DNA of 64,000 bases. Origin: Pseudobacteriovorax antillogorgiicola (GTDB lineage: Bacteria; Bdellovibrionota_B; Oligoflexia; Oligoflexales; Oligoflexaceae). The stretch spans positions 124,001-188,000 of the forward strand of contig NZ_FWZT01000014.1 in the NCBI RefSeq assembly GCF_900177345.1, read 5' to 3'. Under the pieces are notes generated by a model. That model was not told the DNA's origin. It searched no databases and saw only the letters and a list, made by a program, of their open reading frames with translations. Both the position numbers and the translations under genes were made by a program. Shown in pieces: positions 2,558 to 51,140 of the stretch (position 1 is its first letter; each line of letters opens with the position of its first letter).

Positions 2558-3880
2558 TTGGAAAGCCAGCGATTTAAGAAAATTATGGGTCTCTCGCTGC
2601 CTATCATGGGCGGAATGGTATCCCAAAACGTCACAAATCTGGTTGATATCTTCTTTGTCAAAAACTTGGGGAGTGCAGCTCTGGCTGCAGTGGGCTTGGG
2701 AGGTTTTGCGGCATTTGTCTCGATTTCTCTCGTTCTCGGGGTGTCTACTGGAGTTCAAGCAATTGCAGCGCGACGCAAGGGTGAAGGTGAATTTACGAAG
2801 TTAGCCCAGCCGTTGAACACGGGTCTGCTCATTGCCTTGGTTTCAGGGATCGCCTTGGCTGTCCCGCTCTTTATTTTGGTGCCACATTTTTATCCTTACC
2901 TGAATAGCGATCCTGAAGTCATCGATCTGGGTAGCTCCTACTTACAGATCAGGTTGCTAGGCATTGTATTTGTTGGCTTAAACTTTTCCTTTCGTGGTTA
3001 TTGGAACGGGATCAACTTATCCAAGCTCTACATGGGAACACTGGTCTTCATGCACCTTATCAATATCTTCCTCAACTATGCCTTAATTTTTGGAAACTTT
3101 GGATTTCCGCAGCTGGGGCTGGATGGTGCTGCGTGGGGGACCAGTATTTCCTTTGCGTGTGGAACCTTGGTTTATCTCTCCCTAGGGATGCGGCATGCGC
3201 GCCATGCAGGGTTTCTAAGAATCTGGCCCTCATGGGATCAGATCAAGCAGATGCTGACATTATCGTTACCCAGTGGCGTCCAACAGCTGTTTTTTTCTAG
3301 CGGTCTTCTGGCTTTCTTCTGGATCGTAGGCCTTGTTGGTACTACCGAACTAGCAGCTGCGAACATCCTTACTAATGTGATGTTGGTGGCGATACTCCCG
3401 GCTATGGGATTGGGGCTGGCTGCTGCATCACTCGTAGGGCAGGCCTTGGGGCGACAAGACGCTGAAGATGCACGGCTTTGGGCTTGGGATGTCGTCAAAG
3501 TGGGGATTCTAATCATCGGAACGATAGGCTTGCCTATGTGGGCTGTTCCCGACTGGGTGCTGCTGCCATTTGCCCCAGGGCCTGAGGCTATGGCTGCGTC
3601 GCGATTGCCACTCAGAATTACAGGAGCCTACATCGCACTCGATTCTGTCGGGCTTGTCTTGATGAATGCTCTTCTGGGAGCTGGGGCGAGCAAGCAAGTG
3701 ATGGCTGTGTCACTGTCGTTGCAGTGGATTTTGTTTCTTCCTCTAGCTTTGCTCGCAGTAAGTTTGCTGGGAGCAGGCTTTACAACCCTGTGGGTCATGC
3801 AGGGAACTTACCGACTTTTCCAAGCCATAGTATTTATTGTGATTTGGGAGCGAGGTAGCTGGGCGTCAATCAAGCTGTAA
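2558..3880 (+). CDS. MATE family efflux transporter
   Basis: 440 residues with about twelve hydrophobic segments in two similar halves, the layout of MATE (NorM/DinF-like) Na+/H+-coupled exporters of cationic drugs and metabolites in the inner membrane. The N-terminal part carries the family-like PIMGGMVSQNVTNLVDIFFV stretch of the first helix. Start is a TTG preceded by AGGAG at a 7-nt spacing; no ATG in frame is near. The gene stands alone, divergent from the small protein at 2465 and about 220 bp ahead of the SUF operon. Substrate cannot be told from sequence. Confidence 0.9.
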   Translation: MESQRFKKIMGLSLPIMGGMVSQNVTNLVDIFFVKNLGSAALAAVGLGGFAAFVSISLVLGVSTGVQAIAARRKGEGEFTKLAQPLNTGLLIALVSGIALAVPLFILVPHFYPYLNSDPEVIDLGSSYLQIRLLGIVFVGLNFSFRGYWNGINLSKLYMGTLVFMHLINIFLNYALIFGNFGFPQLGLDGAAWGTSISFACGTLVYLSLGMRHARHAGFLRIWPSWDQIKQMLTLSLPSGVQQLFFSSGLLAFFWIVGLVGTTELAAANILTNVMLVAILPAMGLGLAAASLVGQALGRQDAEDARLWAWDVVKVGILIIGTIGLPMWAVPDWVLLPFAPGPEAMAASRLPLRITGAYIALDSVGLVLMNALLGAGASKQVMAVSLSLQWILFLPLALLAVSLLGAGFTTLWVMQGTYRLFQAIVFIVIWERGSWASIKL

Positions 3881-4007
3881 CTCTCCGTAGCAGGTCCTTG
3901 TGGCGATCTTCAAATCTGCCGATAAGAGGGTTGGTAGCAGTTGGGATTCTAGCCAATTATCTCCATTAATTACAGTATTTTAGAGAGATGGGAGCTAGTC
4001 GGCTAGA

Positions 4008-4032
4008 ATACTTGACAAAAACAGTAAACATT
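4008..4032 (+). promoter_or_regulatory. IscR type-1-like operator
   Basis: The 25 nt match about 21 positions of the IscR type-1 consensus as I remember it (ATA-SYYGAC-T-RWWWY-AGT-CRRSTAT). The conserved GAC and AGT half-sites are present at the expected spacing. It overlaps the -35 element of the promoter before the Rrf2/SUF operon, as expected for autorepression by the [2Fe-2S] form of the regulator encoded at 4102. Confidence 0.6.
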
Positions 4033-4101: not shown

Positions 4102-4578
4102 ATGAATCTAACATCGAGAAGTCGTTACGCTATCAAGATCATGCTCGATCTTGCCAAGCACACAGAAGAGCCTCTGGTCCGTCGCCAGGACATTGTCAAA
4201 CGACAGGGGGTTCCTGCTAAGTATCTCGATCAAATTCTCGTACGCCTGAGAAAGGCTGGGTTGGTCGATTCTATCCGAGGTCGAACGGGTGGTTACCGAG
4301 TGGGGCGCAAGCTAGACAGCATTACACTCTGGGATATTTTTCATGCCGTTGAAGATGGCATCTACCCGGTGGCCTGTGTTGATGAGCACGAGGCCTGTCG
4401 GTACACAGCTTCCTGTGTCGCGAGCGGCCCTTGGCAGCTTATTTTCGATACCTTGAGATCCCAGCTCGAAGGGATGACCCTGATCGATCTTGCTAACCGC
4501 TATGCGGTTCAAGAAAAAATGTGCCCCATGGCGGGGATTCGAGAGTGTAAACAAGGCCGCGAGCCCGTCAGAGTATGA
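4102..4578 (+). CDS. Rrf2/IscR-type Fe-S regulator
   Basis: 158 residues, normal for the family. An N-terminal winged helix-turn-helix (MNLTSRSRYAIKIMLDLA start, RTGGYRVGR wing) is followed by three cysteines at 92, 99 and 105, in the place of the IscR cluster ligands (C-x6-C-x5-C; E. coli IscR is C92, C98, C104). Two further cysteines sit near the C-terminus (about 141 and 148). It is first in the SUF operon and 9 bp ahead of sufB, behind a promoter bearing an IscR type-1-like site. By analogy with IscR/SufR it should sense Fe-S status and repress its own operon when the cluster is loaded. Autoregulation is inferred. Confidence 0.9.
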   Translation: MNLTSRSRYAIKIMLDLAKHTEEPLVRRQDIVKRQGVPAKYLDQILVRLRKAGLVDSIRGRTGGYRVGRKLDSITLWDIFHAVEDGIYPVACVDEHEACRYTASCVASGPWQLIFDTLRSQLEGMTLIDLANRYAVQEKMCPMAGIRECKQGREPVRV

Positions 4579-4587
4579 GGTCGTGTT

Positions 4588-6051
4588 TTGAGTCGTAAAT
4601 TGGAGTCAGAAATGGAAGAAGCTACTTCAGAATTTTCCAACCGAGAGTACAAATATGGGTTTGTCTCAGACGTGGAAACCGAAGACTTCCCAGTTGGTAT
4701 TAACGAAGATATTGTGAATATGATATCTGATATCAAAGATGAGCCCGACTTCGTTCGTCAGTATCGCTTGAAGGCTTTTCGATACTGGCAGAAGATGTCA
4801 GAGCCTGACTGGGCGGAAATCGATTATCCAAAGATCGATTTTCAAGGAGTTCGTTACTACAGCGCTCCTAAGAAAAATACTGATGGACCAAAAAGCCTCG
4901 ACGAAGTCGATCCAGAAATCCTGGAAACGTTCAAAAAGCTTGGCATTCCCCTTGGCGAGCAAGCTCGGCTTGCAGGTGTAGCTGTAGATGCTGTGTTTGA
5001 TAGCGTCTCGGTGGGCACCACTCACCAAGAAGAGCTAGAAAAATACGGCATCATTTTCTGCTCGTTTTCGGAAGCTATCCGCGATCATCCTGAGCTTGTG
5101 CAAAAGTATTTGGGCAAGGTGGTCCCCTATAAAGATAACTTTTACGCGGCTCTCAACGCAGCCGTGTTTTCTGACGGTTCTTTTTGCTACATCCCCAAGG
5201 GGGTGAAGTGCCCGATGGACCTATCCACATATTTCCGTATCAATGCTGCTGGCTCAGGGCAGTTCGAACGAACCCTGGTCATCGCTGATGAAGGTAGCTC
5301 GGTCAGCTATCTTGAAGGTTGCACCGCCCCCCAAAGGGATGAAAATCAGCTTCATGCAGCCGTAGTCGAGCTGATTGCCATGGATGACGCCGAGATCAAG
5401 TATTCAACCGTTCAGAACTGGTATGCTGGAAACGAGAAGGGCGAAGGTGGCATTTATAACTTCGTGACGAAGCGCGGTCTTTGCGCTGGTCGGAACTCTC
5501 ATATTTCATGGACGCAAGTTGAAGCTGGTTCTGCGATCACTTGGAAGTATCCTAGCTGCATTCTCAAGGGCGATAACTCTCGCGGTGAATTCTACTCGGT
5601 AGCGCTCACCAATAATAAGATGCAAGCGGACACCGGCACTAAGATGATCCACATTGGCAAGAATACTCGCAGTAAAATCATTTCAAAGGGTATTTCTGCT
5701 GAGGAATCCTCCAATGTCTATCGGGGCCAGGTGAAAATCATGGCATCGGCGGAAAATGCTCGCAACTACTCCCAGTGTGATTCGATGTTAGTTGGCGATA
5801 AGTGTAGTGCCAATACCTATCCCTACATCGAAGTGCAAAACGACTCTGGTACGGTGGAGCACGAAGCCAGTACCTGTAAACTCAATGCCGATCAGCTCTT
5901 TTATTTACAGTCCCGTGGGCTTGAAGAGGAAGAGGCGATCGGTCTGCTATTAAATGGCTTTTGCAAAGAGGTCTTCAACGAGTTGCCACTCGAATTCTCA
6001 GCCGAGGCCGTAAAATTACTTGAAATGAAATTAGAAGGAAGTGTGGGATAA
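4588..6051 (+). CDS. sufB: Fe-S cluster assembly protein SufB
   Basis: 487 residues, the usual SufB length. Contains the signature stretches [40 protein letters not shown] and [13 protein letters not shown], plus the C-terminal [17 protein letters not shown] and HEASTCKL region that carries the catalytic cysteine and metal ligands. SufB forms the SufBC2D scaffold with the next two genes. Two starts are possible: TTG at 4588 (GAGG 7 nt upstream) or ATG at 4612 (GGAG 6 nt upstream); I keep the longer. The stop overlaps the sufC start by one base, so translation is likely coupled. Confidence 0.97.
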
Positions 6052-6803
6052 TGCTTGATATTAAGGATCTACACGCCAAGGTGGATGAGGTTCCGGTTCT
6101 TAAAGGTTTGAATCTCAAGGTGAATGCAGGTGAAGTTCACGCGATTATGGGGCCAAATGGGGGTGGAAAAAGCACCTTGTCTAAAGTCATCGCAGGGCAC
6201 CCAGATTACGAAGTGACTTCGGGAGAGATGCACTATGAAGTCGACTTTAAAAGCAAGAATATCAATGACCTTGAAGCCGACGAGCGCGCCCGCAACGGTA
6301 TCTTTCTAGCGTTTCAATACCCGGTAGAAATTCCTGGTGTGCCGAATACTGAGTTTTTGCGCAACGCTTTCAATGCTCTCTGCAAGCACCAAGGGATCGC
6401 AGAGATGGACGAGGACAAATTTGCAGCTTTCGTTAGAGAAAAGGCGGCAATGCTCAATATCGACGAGAGCTTCCTGGCTCGCGAACTGAACGTCGATCTT
6501 TCTGGCGGTGAAAAGAAACGAAATGAGATCTTACAGATGGCAGTACTTTCACCCCGTCTCGCAGTGCTTGATGAAATCGACTCCGGTTTGGATGTGGATT
6601 CACTACGAATCGTTTCCGAGGGTGTAAACAAGCTCAAGAGCGAAGACAACGCCATCATCCTGATCACCCATTACCAAAGATTGCTCAATCACATCGAGCC
6701 TGATTTTGTTCACGTACTAAGCGACGGCAAAATCATCAAGTCAGGTGATAAGAGTTTGGCGTTGGATATCGAGGAAAAAGGCTACGACTGGCTTTTAAAT
6801 TAA
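6051..6803 (+). CDS. sufC: SUF ATPase SufC
   Basis: 250 residues, a soluble ABC-type ATPase. Walker A GPNGGGKST at about 35-43, signature LSGGEKKR, Walker B LAVLDEIDSGLD, and the switch histidine in ILITHYQR are all present. SufC binds SufB and SufD and drives cluster assembly by ATP hydrolysis in the cytoplasm. The ATG overlaps the last base of sufB. Confidence 0.97.
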   Translation: MLDIKDLHAKVDEVPVLKGLNLKVNAGEVHAIMGPNGGGKSTLSKVIAGHPDYEVTSGEMHYEVDFKSKNINDLEADERARNGIFLAFQYPVEIPGVPNTEFLRNAFNALCKHQGIAEMDEDKFAAFVREKAAMLNIDESFLARELNVDLSGGEKKRNEILQMAVLSPRLAVLDEIDSGLDVDSLRIVSEGVNKLKSEDNAIILITHYQRLLNHIEPDFVHVLSDGKIIKSGDKSLALDIEEKGYDWLLN

Positions 6804-6821
6804 GGTCGGAAAGGGATACGC

Positions 6822-8102
6822 ATGAATACACTTGTTGAACAGGCCTTTCAAACCCTAAGCCACAGACCAGATTGGTTGCTTAAAAAGGGCGAAGAGTCTC
6901 TTTCAGCGCTTCGGTCTCTAGGTGTGCCGACTCGAAAAGATGAAGAGTGGAAATACACTAGCGCCAAGAAAATGATCGATAAGCCCTACGCTCTAGCTTC
7001 AAATTTAGAGGAAGCTGCTAGTTTGGGTACCTTCTATCATGCTGATGAAAAGTGTCTACGACTGGTCTTTCACAATGGACGCTTTGTCCCGAGTCAATCT
7101 AATATCAAAGATGCTCCATCAGGCCTTGAAATCAAATCTTTAAACGACGCTTGGTCGGAAGCTGAATTTGTAAATAAGCTGAAAAGTGTTTCGGAATTCA
7201 GAAATGCTTTTCAAGCTGCGAATACGGCTTTGCTTAACGAAGGACTGGTTATTTCAGCAAAGCGTAACCAAGCAATCGCCTCGATTGTTGACTTGGTGTT
7301 TATTTATAGCGATCAGGGTCAAGACGAAGAACTTCTTAGTAGCCCTACGATATTCGTCGATGCTGAACCCTCATCAGCTCTGACGGTTCGTGAGCTACAC
7401 GTAGGTGATCGACAGCGACCTCTACTCAATAACATCCAAATTCACGTCACAGCTCAGGCGAATAGCCGGGTGAAGCTCTATAAGTTTCAGAATCTGGGAT
7501 CAAACTCGGTTCATGTGGACCACACCGAAGTTGAGCAGATGCGAGACTCCCGTTTTGAGACCTTTAGTTTCACTTTGGGAGCAAGCCTGGCTCGCAACGA
7601 TCTACAAGTCAAACTCAAAGAGCCTGGTGCTTCGGTACAATTGGATGGGCTCTATGCGACACGGGGTAACCAACATGTCGATAACCAAACTGTTGTGGAC
7701 CACATTAGTCCCAACTGCGAATCAAGTCAGCTCTATAAAGGGGTGCTCAAGGACAAAAGCCGCGCTGTATTTAATGGTAAGGTATTGATTCGAAGAGATG
7801 CGCAGCAAACTAATGCCCAGCAGCTGAATAAAAACTTGCTTCTTAGTGAAGGTGTGGAAGTCGATACGAAACCACAGATGGAGATCGACGCTGATGATGT
7901 TAAATGCGCCCATGGTGCGACTGTGGGGCGAATGGCCGATGATGAATTATTCTACCTGGAGAGTCGCGGTATCAGGCAAGATCTCGCCCGCAAAATGCTG
8001 GCGATAGGCTTTCTGAATGAAACCATTCAAGGCATAACAGACGAGTTTGTGCGGCAAGAGTTTGAGTTAACTCTCAAGAAAGAGTTTACCGATGGTATCT
8101 GA
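6822..8102 (+). CDS. sufD: SufD scaffold protein
   Basis: 426 residues, a SufB paralogue. N-terminal helical region (GVPTRKDEEWKYTS is the typical SufD entry motif), central parallel beta-helix, and the C-terminal KCAHGATVGRMADDELFYL stretch with the conserved His-Gly-Ala. It starts with ATG 18 bp after sufC. With SufB and SufC it makes the SufBC2D complex. The 3' end overlaps the next gene by 11 bp, supporting one transcript. Confidence 0.95.
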   Translation: MNTLVEQAFQTLSHRPDWLLKKGEESLSALRSLGVPTRKDEEWKYTSAKKMIDKPYALASNLEEAASLGTFYHADEKCLRLVFHNGRFVPSQSNIKDAPSGLEIKSLNDAWSEAEFVNKLKSVSEFRNAFQAANTALLNEGLVISAKRNQAIASIVDLVFIYSDQGQDEELLSSPTIFVDAEPSSALTVRELHVGDRQRPLLNNIQIHVTAQANSRVKLYKFQNLGSNSVHVDHTEVEQMRDSRFETFSFTLGASLARNDLQVKLKEPGASVQLDGLYATRGNQHVDNQTVVDHISPNCESSQLYKGVLKDKSRAVFNGKVLIRRDAQQTNAQQLNKNLLLSEGVEVDTKPQMEIDADDVKCAHGATVGRMADDELFYLESRGIRQDLARKMLAIGFLNETIQGITDEFVRQEFELTLKKEFTDGI

Positions 8103-8544
8103 AGAGCACAACAACGACCTCTACCAGAAAGTGCTCCTAGAGCACGCGAGGCAGCCTCGCAACTTCGGTGAAGATGCGGAGGCGCAGTTGCGCGCTGAAG
8201 GTCGCAACAAGTTGTGTGGTGACACAATTCGTGTCTATCTCCGATTGTCGGAGAAAGATAGGGTTGAAAAGGCATCATTTGATGGTGAGTCCTGTGCAAT
8301 CTGCAAGGGCACAGCATCATTGCTAACAACTGAGCTAACAGGCAAGACACGTGATGAAGCAAAGCAGATGATTGAGGATCTCGATCGTTTTGCTAGCGAA
8401 TGGTCTTTACCAGAGCACCTAGGTGCATTTAAGCCATTGCAGGCATTAAAGAAGTTCCCAACTCGGCTGAAGTGTTTAACTTTACCTTGGCGGACCTTTC
8501 AGTCGGCGCTGCTAGGCAATCAAGAAACTGTTTCAACAGAGTGA
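8092..8544 (+). CDS. sufU: SufU/IscU-type sulfur-transfer scaffold
   Basis: 150 residues. Opens with LYQKVLLEHARQPRNFG and holds the three family cysteines in CGDTIRV, SCAICKGTASLLT and RLKCLTLPWRTF. The aspartate after the first cysteine is kept. In Firmicutes SufU is a zinc protein that takes persulfide sulfur from SufS to SufB. Here no sufS lies in the operon, so the donor desulfurase must be encoded elsewhere. It overlaps sufD by 11 bp and is 8 bp from nfu. Confidence 0.9.
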   Translation: MVSEEHNNDLYQKVLLEHARQPRNFGEDAEAQLRAEGRNKLCGDTIRVYLRLSEKDRVEKASFDGESCAICKGTASLLTTELTGKTRDEAKQMIEDLDRFASEWSLPEHLGAFKPLQALKKFPTRLKCLTLPWRTFQSALLGNQETVSTE

Positions 8545-8552
8545 GGTGGGGC

Positions 8553-9116
8553 ATGGATTTAATTAAGACTATGGTTCGGGCAACACCCAATCCTTATGCC
8601 AAGAAAATTATTTGTAACTTTGACGTCAAGGCCCGCGGCAAAGTCAGTTTTAACGGCGTTGATGAATGTACTCATGTGCCCTTAGCTCTAGCCTTGTTTC
8701 AACTGCCTGAGGTGACCCAAATTCACTTCTTTGAGAATGTGGTCACAATCACACAAAGTGGTAACATTGCTTGGGATGATTTAGTGGAACAAGCCAAGAA
8801 AGTGATTATTAATCTTCTACCCCAGCACGATCCTGACTTTGAAAGTGCTGAACACAATAGAAGGAAGGGTCTCCCAACGGAAATTCTTCAGATTGAAGAA
8901 ATCTTGGATCGCACCATCAGACCAGCTCTGCAAGGGGATGGTGGAGACTTAGAGGTTCTCGATCTAGATGGTCACCTGCTTACGATTCGTTACGAGGGTG
9001 CTTGTGGCTCCTGCCCGAGTGCTGCAACGGGCACTCTATCAGCGATCCAGAGTGTATTACGGGACGAGTACGATCCCGAACTTGAAGTGATTCCTATCAT
9101 GCTCGAAACTCACTAG
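8553..9116 (+). CDS. Nfu-type Fe-S carrier
   Basis: About 187 residues. An N-terminal Nfu_N (Scaffold protein Nfu/NifU N) domain (MVRATPNPYAKKI start) precedes a C-terminal NifU-like domain with the cluster-binding CGSCPSAATG motif. This two-domain arrangement is that of A-type-independent [4Fe-4S] carriers that deliver clusters to apoproteins. I start at ATG 8553, preceded by GAGGTGGG right after the sufU stop; a frame extension upstream would overlap sufU by 73 bp and is unlikely. It is the last gene of the SUF operon. Confidence 0.92.
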   Translation: MDLIKTMVRATPNPYAKKIICNFDVKARGKVSFNGVDECTHVPLALALFQLPEVTQIHFFENVVTITQSGNIAWDDLVEQAKKVIINLLPQHDPDFESAEHNRRKGLPTEILQIEEILDRTIRPALQGDGGDLEVLDLDGHLLTIRYEGACGSCPSAATGTLSAIQSVLRDEYDPELEVIPIMLETH

Positions 9117-9142
9117 GTTCAAGCCTGACCAACAACACCGAC

Positions 9143-9172
9143 TCCGCGGCATTCGATAGGCAACGCCGTGGA
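9143..9172 (+). terminator. Hairpin after the SUF operon
   Basis: TCCGCGGC pairs with GCCGTGGA (one G-U) around a 14-nt loop, 26 nt after the nfu stop. There is no U-tract, so it may be a Rho-linked or attenuating hairpin. Confidence 0.35.
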
Positions 9173-9192
9173 ATTTGGCCCCCTCCCATAGC

Positions 9193-9399
9193 TTAGAGAA
9201 GTAAACCATTAATCAAGTTTTGAACTGTAAGTGCCAGTAAAATTGTGGCGCCACCCAAGCCTATGAAGGCAAGTGCGATGAGGCTAGCCTTGATGATCTG
9301 CTTTTTTTGCTGGTGCTTCATAAGCTCTTCAAAGCGAACGAGAACCGTGTAGTCGTGCACGCTTTGGCTGTAATAAGCTAAATTTGTGGTGTTTTTCAT
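9193..9399 (-). CDS. Possible single-span membrane peptide
   Basis: 68 residues: a polar N-terminal half and one strong hydrophobic segment near residues 42-64. An internal ATG at residue 27 has GAAGAG close upstream and would leave a 42-residue peptide made almost entirely of the membrane span. No clear ribosome site precedes the first ATG. It sits convergently after the SUF operon. Not recognised; coding is plausible but unproven. Confidence 0.4.
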   Translation of the reverse strand: MKNTTNLAYYSQSVHDYTVLVRFEELMKHQQKKQIIKASLIALAFIGLGGATILLALTVQNLINGLLL

Positions 9400-9481
9400 A
9401 TATTAAACCATCATTATTACTATCAATTCCTCCCGATCTTATGGAAAAAACGACCATATGTCAAAAAAATATATATAGATG

Positions 9482-9510
9482 TTGACATTCTAGACAGAAA
9501 GTCCTAAAAA
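9482..9510 (+). promoter_or_regulatory. Candidate promoter of the S41 protease gene
   Basis: TTGACA at 9482-9487, 17-nt spacer, then TAAAAA at 9505-9510, about 35 nt ahead of the start. The -35 is perfect and the -10 is weak. Confidence 0.45.
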
Positions 9511-9544
9511 TTCTGTCATCAAGACGTATTATGAGCAGGCCGTG

Positions 9545-11245
9545 ATGACAAGATCCATGACTTTCGCGGTCTTGATTTCATCCCTTTTGCTGACCTTGTT
9601 GACTCTGTCGTTGCTTGACAAACGAAATCAAGTCCGACCCATAGACAACGAAATATTCTTCTATTACAAGCTCGACCAGCGTTTGGATAGTCTTGCTACG
9701 ATCCAAAAAGCGATCGAAACGAAGTACGCTTTGATCGATATTAAGCAAGAGAGGTTAGGTCTCGACATCGAGGGGCTTTTCCGAAAGGCTCGGGACCGAG
9801 AGCGCGATTACCCCAATACGGAAAAGTCGTTCTATCGAGCGGTTAGCAACCTTTGGTTTCTGGACCGAGTGAGACAGGTGGTGGCATCCTTCCAGGATAC
9901 CCACCTCCAAGTCTTGCCCCTATTGGAATTGCCTACGGTGCATCTAGGCTTTCAAATCCATCACGTCGATCAAAAGTACATCATCACAGGCATGGATTCA
10001 GATCTTGAGGAAGTTCTTGAGATTGGCGATCAGATCTTTGCTTTGGATGGCGAGCCGATTGACCTTATAACGAGAGATCTTCAGCAATATATTTCCTCCA
10101 GTTCGCCCTCCTACAGAGAGCAACTAGCCGTTCAAGCTCTCACCAAGAGGAGCTTCCGGTACCCAAAATCTCCAAGAACACGGCTAACGATTCGGTCGCG
10201 AAACGGTGAGATCAAAGACCTAACCCTTGCTTGGCACTATGACTACGAAGTCATCCGCATGGATGCTATGCACTATCTCCAAAATCGCGGGTTTTCGTAT
10301 AAGGAGAGCCCAGCTCTTTTCGATACTGGCTTTTCACCCTACCGATCCCCCATGGGCCTTGTCGATGCTGATGATTGGTATGGGGTGGAAGACAAAGGGC
10401 GGTTGATGTTTCGTACGGGTTTTATGGAGCTAAACAAGCAAACCGCGGGTGTGATTCAAGTCTATTCTTTCTTTGAGCATCAAGTTAGTCGGTATCAGAG
10501 TGGCAAGGCTAAAGACTGGGATGAACCGATTTCCAAATTTTTAAAACAACTCAAAGCCAAAAACTTTCCCCTCATACTTGACCTGAGGCACAATCCGGGA
10601 GGCCATGTGGATCTGCCCATACAGCTGATGAGTTTGATCGCTCGCTCAGGGGAAAGCTACCCAAGCTATATGGAAGGGTTTCGAGTGACGCCCAACATCA
10701 TTCAAACTTGGGAGCGTGCTTCTCCTCTTTCAGCAGCCAGTCGGGATGAGAAGAGGGCGATTAGGCAACTGAGAAGAGCAGTTGCCAACGGTCAGGGCTA
10801 TACCGGAACTTGGGAGAAAACGGATCCAATCAAGGCAGATCAAGATGTGAAAGGCTTCGATCAGCCGATCGTAGCGTTGATTTCCCCACAGTGTATCAGC
10901 GCCTGTGACATCTTTGCCCTGCTTTTGGAATCATCAAAGCGAGCAACTTTAATAGGGTCAACCGCCAACGGAACAGGCGCAGGCTTCTTCGATTGGGCGC
11001 CATTTTCTGGGAGCACGTGGGTGGATATGCATGAGATCTTCCAGATGGAGATCCCAAACATGCTGTTCAGTCATGGCCTACCAGAAGGACCAGCGGAGTA
11101 CTCTTCATCAACTTCAGTCATTCGCTTCAATCGTGAGAACCGGCCGGTAAGCTCGGATATATTCTATCAGACTCGACGGGAGGATGTTCTTTCTGGACAT
11201 CGAGGCTGGTACGGTAAGGCCTTTCAGGTTCTTTTAAGTCCCTAA
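9545..11245 (+). CDS. S41-family (C-terminal-processing type) peptidase
   Basis: 566 residues. An N-terminal hydrophobic helix (AVLISSLLLTLLTLSLL) acts as signal or anchor. A PDZ-like region lies around residues 140-225 (LEIGDQIFALDGEPID). The C-terminal S41 catalytic domain has FPLILDLRHNPGGHVDLPI and the active-site strand VALISPQCISACDIFALLLE, where the Ser of ISACD is the likely nucleophile. The insertion between those motifs is longer than in CtpA, closer to tail-specific-protease relatives. ATG 9545 is preferred over GTG 9542 because AGCAGG is then 5 nt away. It probably works in the periplasm; substrates are unknown. Confidence 0.8.
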   Translation: MTRSMTFAVLISSLLLTLLTLSLLDKRNQVRPIDNEIFFYYKLDQRLDSLATIQKAIETKYALIDIKQERLGLDIEGLFRKARDRERDYPNTEKSFYRAVSNLWFLDRVRQVVASFQDTHLQVLPLLELPTVHLGFQIHHVDQKYIITGMDSDLEEVLEIGDQIFALDGEPIDLITRDLQQYISSSSPSYREQLAVQALTKRSFRYPKSPRTRLTIRSRNGEIKDLTLAWHYDYEVIRMDAMHYLQNRGFSYKESPALFDTGFSPYRSPMGLVDADDWYGVEDKGRLMFRTGFMELNKQTAGVIQVYSFFEHQVSRYQSGKAKDWDEPISKFLKQLKAKNFPLILDLRHNPGGHVDLPIQLMSLIARSGESYPSYMEGFRVTPNIIQTWERASPLSAASRDEKRAIRQLRRAVANGQGYTGTWEKTDPIKADQDVKGFDQPIVALISPQCISACDIFALLLESSKRATLIGSTANGTGAGFFDWAPFSGSTWVDMHEIFQMEIPNMLFSHGLPEGPAEYSSSTSVIRFNRENRPVSSDIFYQTRREDVLSGHRGWYGKAFQVLLSP

Positions 11246-11317: not shown

Positions 11318-12574
11318 ATGAAAGATGTTAACGGCTTACGGGCGAATATGGGCGCGGACGCACAGAAGAAAAAAGTTACCAGGCGGGTCATTAAGCAGGG
11401 CAGAAACTATATCTGTGGCCTATGCGGACGAGTGCATAAATTCCCTCAGACAGCCGAGGACTGTGTCGAGCGATGCTTTCAAAAATCCATATCCCAAGAT
11501 GGAGTTGCCGAGAAAACGGTCAAATCTAAAAAGAAGTATCGCTGTAGCTTCTGTAAAAGAGTCTATCCGTCTCTCACCGAGGCAAAGGACTGTGTAGAGA
11601 AATGCAAGCAGAAAGCTAAGAAAAAAAGAGAGCGTGAAAAAGCGATCAAAACCCATAGTGACAAGCAAATGGCCGACCGTGCGAAGTTGCTTGCTATGAT
11701 ATCTCAAAATGCAGCTCAGGAAGCGGATGAGCAAGGGCTTACTTCAGATTCGCGGGTTGCTAAACGAGGTCGGTCCTTTGTTTGCCTGCGCTGCCAATCA
11801 ATATACCCTACTACAAGAGAAGCGCGGGAATGTGCGGATCGGCACATGAGTGGGCCTAAACAAAGCTATGCTGAGCGGGTGGCTAAGGCGAAAGAAGCCG
11901 CTCAAGCACGGCGAAATAATTTGGCTCGTGAAGGGCGGGAGGCCGCGCCAGTAGCCAAGCCGAGGCCAACGGTCGTGCATTCCGATCATGGCATTCGTCC
12001 CGAATTTAAGAAACCAAGTCAGCCCACCTCACGTGGTGATAGTGATATTTTTGTTCGTGATGGGGCAAACTATGTTTGTCGTTTATGCAACAAAAGCTAT
12101 TTTACCAAAGCCGATGTTCTGGATTGTTACGAAAGTCACCAGGGGCAGGATTCTAAAAAAGAGAAGCAGGCTGGTATCAAGCTACCTTCAACGAATCCGG
12201 ACTCGACCGATGATTTTGCAAGAGAACGAGCACTCAAGCTTGGCAATGTCAGTGACAAAGATAAATTTATGCGAGATGGCGCTAAATATATCTGTAAGGC
12301 CTGTGGCAAAGGCTACTTCACAAAGATGGAAGTGATCAAGTGCTTTGATAAACATCTCGGTCAAGCTGATGAAGGTGAGACAGATGATACCAAAGAGGAC
12401 GAAGCGGGGCCGCAGCTAGCAGCAGACGCACACTTGCCAGATAAGAAGAAATTTAGCCGTGATGGGGCGAAGTATGTTTGCAAAAAATGCAACCGAAAGT
12501 ACTATACTAGGATTGAAGTGGTGGAATGCTTCAATTACAACTGCCCTGAAGTTTTACCTTCGCAAAGAGGGTAA
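11318..12574 (+). CDS. Six-finger putative zinc-binding protein
   Basis: 418 residues, soluble and very basic, with six copies of one small motif: Y/F-x-C-x2-C-x12-C-x3-C/H. Ligands are C33/C36/C49/C53, C76/C79/C92/C96, C156/C159/C172/H176, C254/C257/C270/H274, C326/C329/C342/H346 and C388/C391/C404/C409. The aromatic residue two before the first Cys, the Y/F after the second Cys in most copies and the hydrophobic residue three before the third ligand match TFIIIA-type C2H2 geometry, with the first His replaced by Cys. Fingers 4-6 are preceded by a repeated RDGA(N/K)Y stretch and are separated by acidic linkers; fingers 1-3 sit in Lys/Arg-rich sequence. The last finger has its fourth ligand shifted by one. 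Nucleic-acid binding is inferred from basicity and finger geometry. I do not recognise a named family. It lies 28 bp ahead of oligopeptidase B. Confidence 0.8.
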   Translation: MKDVNGLRANMGADAQKKKVTRRVIKQGRNYICGLCGRVHKFPQTAEDCVERCFQKSISQDGVAEKTVKSKKKYRCSFCKRVYPSLTEAKDCVEKCKQKAKKKREREKAIKTHSDKQMADRAKLLAMISQNAAQEADEQGLTSDSRVAKRGRSFVCLRCQSIYPTTREARECADRHMSGPKQSYAERVAKAKEAAQARRNNLAREGREAAPVAKPRPTVVHSDHGIRPEFKKPSQPTSRGDSDIFVRDGANYVCRLCNKSYFTKADVLDCYESHQGQDSKKEKQAGIKLPSTNPDSTDDFARERALKLGNVSDKDKFMRDGAKYICKACGKGYFTKMEVIKCFDKHLGQADEGETDDTKEDEAGPQLAADAHLPDKKKFSRDGAKYVCKKCNRKYYTRIEVVECFNYNCPEVLPSQRG

Positions 12575-12602: not shown

Positions 12603-14639
12603 ATGCCGAAGCCTCCTGTAGCAAAGATCAAAGATCATTGGATCGAAACCCATAACGACAAGCGGCGCGACCCCTATTATTGGATGCACGATGCCAAAAA
12701 CCCCGAGGTCATCAAGTATTTAGAAGACGAAAATGCATTCCTAGAAGAAAGCATGAAGCATACCGAAGAGCTTCAAAATACCATATTCGAGGAACTCAAA
12801 GGACGAATCAAAGAGACTGATTCGAGTTCACCGATGAAGGATGGTAACTACTGGTATTTCTATCGCTATGAGGAAGGGCAGCAGTATCCTATTTACTGCC
12901 GAAATGTAGGGGCGGCTGATGGTCCCGAGGAAATCTTGATCGATCAAAACCAATTGGCGAAGGGTCGATCCTTTTGCGATTTCAGTTTTGTTACCAATAG
13001 CCCCGATCACAAATACCTTGCCTATGGTGTCGATTTTGTGGGGCAGGAAGCTTATGAGATCTATATTAAAGATCTTGAAACAGGAAATGTTTTTGAACTT
13101 GGCATCGACTCTGCCTCCAGTTCTTTCGAATGGCTGTCTGATTCTCAATCCTTTCTCTTTACAGCACTAGACGATAAGATGCGGCCTGTTTTCGTTTACA
13201 AAGGAAAAGTAGGCGAACGTTTCAACAAGAATAATTTAGTATATGAAGAGCAAGACGCAGGGTTTTTTGTTTGGCTTGATGAGTCTGAGGATAAGCAATA
13301 CAAGTTTATCTGTCTCCATGGCAATAACTCTTCAGAAGTACTCTTTGCACCTAATACGGCACAAGATATAACATTTACCTTGTTTCAAGCCAGGGAGCCA
13401 GACCATGAATATGAAGTTACTCATAACGAAGGGCAATTTCTTGTTTTGTCAAATTGGAAAGCAGAAAACTATGCTCTCTACGCCTGTACAAATAAAGATA
13501 CGAAGCGAGATACTTGGCATCTATGGCGTCCTTACGAGCCAGCTATCCTAACGGAATCAATTACGATCTACGACAAGTACATTGTTATTCAGGAAAAGGA
13601 AAGAGCATTACCTCGTATTAGAATCATTGAGAAGGAGAGTGAAGAGGAGTTCTTTATTGATTATGGCTTAGAGCCATGTGAGCTTGAAACCATATCTCCA
13701 AGAGAGTATCAAAGCGATACGTTACGCTATGTTCATTCATCCATGTCGTCGCCAGCCTGCACCTATGATTACAATATGAAAGAACAGTCCAAACGGTTGG
13801 TGAAGATTCAGGAGATCCCTGATCCAAACTTTGATCCCAGTCATTATAAGACTGAACGTATCTATTTTGAAGCCAGCGATGGAACCGCAATTCCGGTATC
13901 ATTGCTATATCGTAAGGGCTTAAAGCTTGATGGCTCTCATCGACTTTATCTTTATGGCTATGGATCTTATGGTTCAAGCATGGAACCCAGCTTCTCGTCG
14001 TCGCGATTTAGCTATGTGGATCGTGGAATCGTCTATGCCATTGCTCATGTCCGAGGGGGAATGGAGCTGGGACGCAAGTGGTATCTGGATGGCAAACTTC
14101 TAAGTAAGAAAGCTAGTTTTTCAGATTTTATTGCTGTTGCTGAAGGCTTGATTGAGAAAGGTTATACCGCTGCGGGTAAACTTATTGCAAAGGGAGGTTC
14201 CGCTGGTGGACTGCTAATCGGTGCGGTTGCCAATCAGAGGCCCGATCTATTCGGTGCGATGATCGCAGAGGTGCCATTCGTAGATGTACTCACCACTATG
14301 TTAGATGACTCCCTACCTCTCACAACCATTGAGTACAATGAATGGGGCAACCCCCAAGAGTCCGAATACTACCAGTATATCAAGTCTTATAGCCCCTACG
14401 ACAATGTTAAGCAACAAGCCTACCCAGCGATGCTTGTGATTTCGGGTTTGCACGATATTCGAGTGACTTATTGGGAGCCTACTAAATGGGTGGCTAAGTT
14501 GCGATCTTACAATACCAGTAGCAATAGGATCTTTTTGAAAACCCACATGGAGGCAGGGCATGGGGGAGCGTCTGGTCGATATGACTATTGGAAAGACTAT
14601 GCTCTTGAAGTGGTTTTTGTCTTGGAGAATATCAAATAG
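12603..14639 (+). CDS. Oligopeptidase B-like S9 peptidase
   Basis: 678 residues, normal for oligopeptidase B (PtrB). An N-terminal beta-propeller (entry motif DPYYWMHDAKNPEVIKYLE) and C-terminal alpha/beta-hydrolase domain with nucleophile elbow GGSAGG, catalytic Asp in LHDIRV and His in AGHGG. It lacks a signal peptide, so it is cytoplasmic, cleaving short peptides after basic residues. The start follows a weak AAGG. It is 28 bp after the six-finger gene and could share its transcript. Confidence 0.92.
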   Translation: MPKPPVAKIKDHWIETHNDKRRDPYYWMHDAKNPEVIKYLEDENAFLEESMKHTEELQNTIFEELKGRIKETDSSSPMKDGNYWYFYRYEEGQQYPIYCRNVGAADGPEEILIDQNQLAKGRSFCDFSFVTNSPDHKYLAYGVDFVGQEAYEIYIKDLETGNVFELGIDSASSSFEWLSDSQSFLFTALDDKMRPVFVYKGKVGERFNKNNLVYEEQDAGFFVWLDESEDKQYKFICLHGNNSSEVLFAPNTAQDITFTLFQAREPDHEYEVTHNEGQFLVLSNWKAENYALYACTNKDTKRDTWHLWRPYEPAILTESITIYDKYIVIQEKERALPRIRIIEKESEEEFFIDYGLEPCELETISPREYQSDTLRYVHSSMSSPACTYDYNMKEQSKRLVKIQEIPDPNFDPSHYKTERIYFEASDGTAIPVSLLYRKGLKLDGSHRLYLYGYGSYGSSMEPSFSSSRFSYVDRGIVYAIAHVRGGMELGRKWYLDGKLLSKKASFSDFIAVAEGLIEKGYTAAGKLIAKGGSAGGLLIGAVANQRPDLFGAMIAEVPFVDVLTTMLDDSLPLTTIEYNEWGNPQESEYYQYIKSYSPYDNVKQQAYPAMLVISGLHDIRVTYWEPTKWVAKLRSYNTSSNRIFLKTHMEAGHGGASGRYDYWKDYALEVVFVLENIK

Positions 14640-50699: not shown

Positions 50700-50788
50700 C
50701 TCTATCTACTCTCAACAAGCTACTCATGCTCCAGTTTCGCTAAGATGATAGTTGAGAGTAGATAGAGTAGTTTCGCAAGCGAAACTGG
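50700..50788. repeat. Two interlocked inverted repeats at the ssrA 3' end
   Basis: Pair A: CTCTATCTACTCTCAAC (50700-50716) with GTTGAGAGTAGATAGAG (50751-50767). Pair B: CCAGTTTCGCT (50731-50741) with AGCGAAACTGG (50778-50788), which includes the CCA end of tmRNA. A local hairpin GTTTCGC/GCGAAAC (50770-50785) may terminate tmRNA transcription. The A-B-A'-B' order cannot form simultaneously except as a pseudoknot. Confidence 0.65.
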
Positions 50789-51140
50789 TGGAGGCGGCGG
50801 GAATCGAACCCGCGTCCGAATGTGGGCAGACAAAGGCTACTACATGCTTAGATCCTAGATTTATCCTCCTGCTACAGGCGCCCGAGGCAAGCTACTGTAG
50901 CCGCAGCCTGATTGATGTCCCATGAGTTCTACAGGCGGAAGACTCTCAGTGGTAAGCCAACGGATAGTACGTCTAGCTAGGAGTGTTGGCATCTCCTAGG
51001 TCAACGTAGCAGAACTTAAGCTGCTAAAGAGTAATCGTTGCCGATTAACATTTGAAACGCGTTTATAACCGGGTCACGTTACCACCCCGGACATGCTCCT
51101 TAAAATCGGCTTCCACACCCGTCGAAACCAGTGCGCCCCC
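50786..51140 (-). ncRNA. ssrA: tmRNA (ssrA)
   Basis: 355 nt on the minus strand. The 5' end GGGGGCG pairs with CGCCTCC next to A-CCA, giving a 7-bp acceptor stem; GGTTTCGACGGG follows near the 5' end, and CTAAGCATGTAGTA and GGACGCGGGTTCGATTCCCG lie near the 3' end. The tag reading frame (51016-51042) encodes GNDYSLAA and ends at the TAA within TTTAGCAGCTTAA. It rescues stalled ribosomes with SmpB. The encoded CCA is present. Confidence 0.96.

Follow-up and report, generated by a model that had tools for sequence, protein, structure and literature searches.

In the window, which is a stretch of 64,000 nucleotides from the 7.3 Mb assembly of Pseudobacteriovorax antillogorgiicola, we identified a gene for a protein with six zinc fingers (F1 to F6). 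The gene begins downstream of a group of iron-sulphur cluster genes and is followed, after 28 bp, by a prolyl oligopeptidase gene. (The window also contains a tmRNA gene at 50786-51140 on the minus strand; Rfam RF00023, 144.9 bits.) The features of this region are:

4102..9116, + strand: Rrf2, sufB/C/D, NifU_N, and Nfu iron-sulphur cluster genes (Pfam), upstream of the six-finger gene
11318..12574, + strand: six-finger zinc-finger protein gene; 418 amino acids, net charge +31, no evident signal peptide
11408..11476, + strand: finger 1, CCCC, YICGLCGRVHKFPQTAEDCVERC
11477..11536, + strand: F1-F2 linker, 20 residues; the distance is conserved class-wide, so that F1-F2 form one module
11537..11605, + strand: finger 2, CCCC, YRCSFCKRVYPSLTEAKDCVEKC
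11573..11734, + strand: long predicted helix continuing from finger 2, residues 86-139 (AlphaFold2)
11672..11710, + strand: non-finger motif ADRAKLLAMISQN inside the post-F2 helix; it matches a [D/E]KLxxLAQ-like stretch of six-finger relatives
11777..11845, + strand: finger 3, CCCH, FVCLRCQSIYPTTREARECADRH, the least conserved of the fingers
12071..12139, + strand: finger 4, CCCH, with the RDGANY lead-in hairpin (predicted) immediately upstream
12287..12355, + strand: finger 5, CCCH, with an RDGAKY lead-in; predicted to fold alone as three strands and a helix (mean pLDDT 86)
12473..12544, + strand: finger 6, C-x2-C-x12-C-x4-C, with an RDGAKY lead-in
12603..14639, + strand: prolyl oligopeptidase gene (Pfam), 28 bp downstream of the six-finger gene

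All six fingers fit the pattern Y/F-x-C-x2-C-x3-[Y/H]-x5-[A/V]-x2-C-x3/4-C/H (residues 31-53, 74-96, 154-176, 252-274, 324-346, and 386-409). These six motifs are beyond chance: no full motif appeared in any of 20,000 composition-preserving shuffles. This confirms the original prediction of six copies with the aromatic and hydrophobic core positions of zinc fingers. The predicted spacing of C-x2-C-x12-C-x3-C/H is exact in F1 to F5, but F6 has C-x4-C at its end. The ligand sets are CCCC in F1 and F2, CCCH in F3 to F5, and all-Cys in F6, and together they account for all 21 cysteines of the protein. Five of the six fingers are net basic, and the protein is probably cytosolic.

Predicted fold and comparison with known zinc fingers

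Structure prediction had been suggested as a check, and the fold from AlphaFold2 does converge on C2H2 fingers, as compared with Foldseek and VIA-align. In the models of nine relatives, each finger consists of a strand-turn-strand with the CxxC, a short strand, and a helix that carries the last two ligands. The pLDDT of these blocks is mostly 85-95, and they are joined by low-confidence stretches and by the long helix after F2. F5 folded alone gave the same arrangement. In the predicted fold, the RDGA(K/N)Y lead-in is part of the domain, as a hairpin from an extra N-terminal strand, and not a linker. Given the superpositions on known C2H2 structures, the four ligands of each finger probably converge on one zinc.

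With the whole model as query, the top Foldseek matches are C2H2 arrays, and among the matches for F5 by itself are Kaiso, Tramtrack, ARS2, and PRDM9 (24-25 residues of PRDM9 at 0.7-0.8 A). F1 of Kaiso and F1 of Tramtrack are matched over nearly the whole domain, which fits the extra N-terminal strand of the window fingers. The VIA-align matches include ARS2, Serrate, U2 snRNP chains, an archaeal ribosomal chain, and Kaiso. The archaeal ribosome chain (6skg_Bo, 9qf4_Bk) aligns over 42 residues at 1.9 A with finger 2 and over 38 at 1.9 A with finger 5; it is a single-domain protein, Z is only 3.9-4.5, and we found no sequence relation. Judged absolutely, these scores are low, with no Foldseek E under 0.001 and every VIA-align Z below 5, which is common for domains of about 40 residues. 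Sequence profiles match C2H2 structures mainly at the first knuckle, which is common to zinc ribbons and rubredoxins. We rejected a zinc ribbon or rubredoxin because the second ligand pair (C-x3/4-C/H) sits in a helix and not in a second CxxC knuckle.

The fingers have the same Y/F-x-C-x2-C-x3-aromatic-x5-hydrophobic-x2-ligand-x3-ligand layout and the same predicted fold as classical C2H2 fingers (PF00096; for instance those of PRDM9, Aart, Kaiso F1, Tramtrack F1, and ARS2/Serrate). The 12-residue spacer is evident from the sequence, and the CxxC hairpin and helix from the AlphaFold2 and Foldseek predictions. But the third ligand of classical fingers is His, whereas it is Cys in all six window fingers, with Cys or His as the fourth; the linkers are also long and the helix positions uniform. 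PF00096 had no match to the window protein at E 10, and the zf-C2H2 model had none in the organism's genome at E 0.01.

The C2HC variants, such as the CCHC finger of MOZ (1m36, matched at Z 3.1) and the FOG-type fingers, show that the C2H2 fold tolerates one His-to-Cys change, as here. Those variants alter the fourth ligand, while the window fingers alter the third, and F1, F2, and F6 are all-Cys.

Ros/MucR is the best-studied bacterial zinc finger, and it is unlike C2H2 in spacing and fold. The window fingers resemble it in being bacterial, in having a CxxC knuckle with ligands in the helix, and in having three strands before the helix. Ros has the motif C-x2-C-x9-H-x3-H-H, with a 9-residue spacer, three His, a second helix, and a larger core (PMC9779718), whereas the window fingers have a 12-residue spacer, a Cys third ligand, and one helix. 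The Ros/MucR models in Pfam had no match to the window protein at E 10. The original prediction that the ligand set is distinct from both the eukaryotic and the Ros/MucR type is borne out.

A TFIIIA-like geometry had also been predicted. The spacing within the fingers and the predicted fold are indeed classical, but the fingers do not form a contiguous array. The linkers from F1 to F6 are 20, 57, 75, 49, and 39 residues long, as compared to linkers of about 7 residues, TGEKP-like, in TFIIIA/Kruppel arrays. DNA-reading finger arrays use diversified helix positions (-1, 2, 3, and 6), whereas positions -1 and +3 are nearly fixed in the CCCH fingers of the family.

An uncharacterised family across the Oligoflexia

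By sequence comparison, the six-finger protein is not an orphan but a member of an uncharacterised, class-wide family of Oligoflexia. We found relatives in 38 of 58 Oligoflexia genomes by protein and in 33 of 58 by finger profile; this includes both orders of the class and all seven genomes of the organism's own family. The relatives come in three sizes: 4-7 fingers, 3 fingers, and one-finger microproteins. The same genome also encodes a three-finger paralogue (212 amino acids) and a 49-amino-acid one-finger gene. One-finger CCCH microproteins (about 42-66 amino acids) occur class-wide, this genome included (L004:1453-1602, L021, L037, L045, L048, L049, L066, L069, L072, L073, L075, and L077).

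The third ligand is Cys in 108 of 109 family fingers that were matched by regular expression (these include L048 579+, a likely chance ORF). The sole exception, L038, has His at this position and scores 24.4 bits against zf-C2H2, just below the cut-off of 25.2 bits, and so links the family with the C2H2 fold. The extra residue before the last ligand of F6 recurs in relatives, as C-x4-C in L029 and L030 and as C-x4-H in L008 and L010, so F6 is a recurring variant and not a decayed finger.

In all 32 long members, F1 and F2 are 39-45 residues apart from CxxC to CxxC (43 or 44 residues in 26 members), and every later distance is variable (46-460 residues). F1-F2 is thus a fixed module, and the CCCH fingers are carried on variable linkers. 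In the second order, three proteins of 582-623 amino acids (L032, L043, and L044) have the F1-F2 module, then 383-437 residues, and then a last CCCH finger. These three are acidic overall (net charge -19 to -39), and Pfam found no known domain fused to the fingers in L032.

The CCCH and CCCC finger sets are joined by hhalign (E 4.5e-8), and a tree of the fingers, whose 31 columns resolve broad classes only, splits them into F1-like, F2-like, and C-terminal CCCH classes. F5 of the window protein shares 71% identity with finger 5 of G005 and 68% with the final finger of G001, against 52-55% with F4 and F6 beside it in the same protein. This implies that the duplications are old. The original prediction took a repeated RDGA(N/K)Y lead-in as a sign of internal duplication; the duplication holds, but the lead-in precedes F4, F5, and F6 only. 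Of 60 CCCH fingers, 54 have T/S at helix position -1 and 55 have D/E at position +3, and an aromatic F/Y follows the third ligand.

A scan of genome contigs for exact peptide patterns confirmed nine loci, all within the Oligoflexia; because this was a single scan, absence elsewhere is only as strong as the scan itself. We found no relative of the family in phage and plasmid records. A mobile origin was rejected, as the viral contigs that we scanned contained no relative either. Matches to PHROGs and NCBIfam were weak and partial. PF25017 (zf-C2HC_3) gave 28.5 bits summed over the whole protein, but the best single stretch reaches 15.3 bits over 19 of 47 positions (threshold 24). The literature library searched contained no papers on Oligoflexus zinc fingers.

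The prolyl oligopeptidase gene adjoins the six-finger gene in 6 of the 7 genomes of the family, and the Rrf2-suf-nfu genes lie upstream, syntenic in the same genomes. This placement between suf and prolyl oligopeptidase is confined to one family, and the relatives lie elsewhere in other families. The three-finger gene is beside polA-tatC in three families (f1, f7, and f11), with genes for HPF (ribosome hibernation factor) and recD2 nearby in f1. We rejected functional coupling from synteny; these arrangements suggest vertical descent rather than a functional link.

Possible functions and origin

Our preferred reading, which we hold at about an even chance, is that this is a zinc-binding protein of the C2H2 fold, with Cys as the third ligand (Cys3His and Cys4), probably cytosolic, that binds nucleic acid. 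Each finger is predicted to form a hairpin with the CxxC knuckle, a third strand, and a helix whose C-x3/4-C/H would help hold one zinc. The N-terminal F1-F2 unit would dock as a single rigid body on a conserved partner, and the C-terminal CCCH fingers, on their long flexible linkers, would contribute further near-identical contacts. Since the protein is basic overall and its fingers are basic, this partner may be a nucleic acid. RNA or RNP seems somewhat likelier than sequence-specific DNA, because the fingers are non-contiguous and the helix "reading" positions are uniform; binding to nucleic acid in this order of preference is evenly balanced in our view, with protein binding ranked next.

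In that alternative, F1-F2 sits on a conserved machine (such as the ribosome or RNA polymerase), with the CCCH fingers serving as bridges between protein partners. The acidic relatives (L032, L043, and L044) do not suit a general nucleic-acid binder, and the conserved acidic +3 residue could equally fit a protein-binding face. The uniform helix positions, the aromatic residue after the third ligand, and the fixed F1-F2 unit are also consistent with protein binding. Nevertheless, we consider it rather unlikely, since the window protein has a charge of +31 with basic fingers and several of its best fold matches lie in DNA- or RNA-bound proteins.

The classical 12-residue spacing and the C2H2-like predicted fold might instead indicate a sequence-specific DNA-binding regulator, like a TFIIIA/Kruppel array and possibly derived from eukaryotes. 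This is improbable given linkers of 20-75 residues, reading positions that are undiversified between fingers, the lack of zf-C2H2 matches in the genome at E 0.01, and the long-standing presence of the family in both orders. Least probable, and by our estimate very doubtful, is a metal or redox buffer or sensor tied to the neighbouring iron-sulphur cluster genes: the Cys-rich ligand sets are oxidisable and the gene is just past the Rrf2-suf-nfu cluster, but that linkage is confined to one family, and the fixed secondary structure and conserved non-ligand residues indicate a binding domain.

As to origin, we tentatively propose, at somewhat less than even confidence, an endogenous Oligoflexia lineage of Cys3His/Cys4 fingers of the C2H2 fold that diversified within the class to give a fixed two-finger module and expandable chains, independent of both Ros/MucR and the eukaryotic arrays. 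We rejected recent transfer from a eukaryote as the main reading because the family is in both orders and the phage and plasmid records contain no member of it.

Different finger proteins occur in genome G016, from another family of this order. It contains at least 10 ORFs of about 200-350 amino acids (L127 at 7456-9784, L128 at 8642-9694, L129, L130 at 3387-4016, and L132-L135) that encode 2-7 classical C2H2 fingers separated by short linkers; in most of them the N-terminus is hydrophobic and resembles a signal peptide. Bacterial genes (shikimate kinase, EPSP synthase, and thymidylate kinase) are present on some of the G016 contigs. These proteins of an Oligoflexia MAG are true C2H2 arrays and are apparently exported; they could be host-directed proteins of a symbiont. 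Their ligands, linkers, and export signal set them apart from the window family.

Eukaryotes are the best-known source of C2H2-type geometry. A bacterial family that spans a class and combines the classical spacing with a swapped ligand and chains of several fingers provides an independent case for the evolution of the fold and for the role of multi-finger proteins where there is no eukaryotic transcription. The microproteins with one finger (42-66 amino acids) should be easy to make and test.
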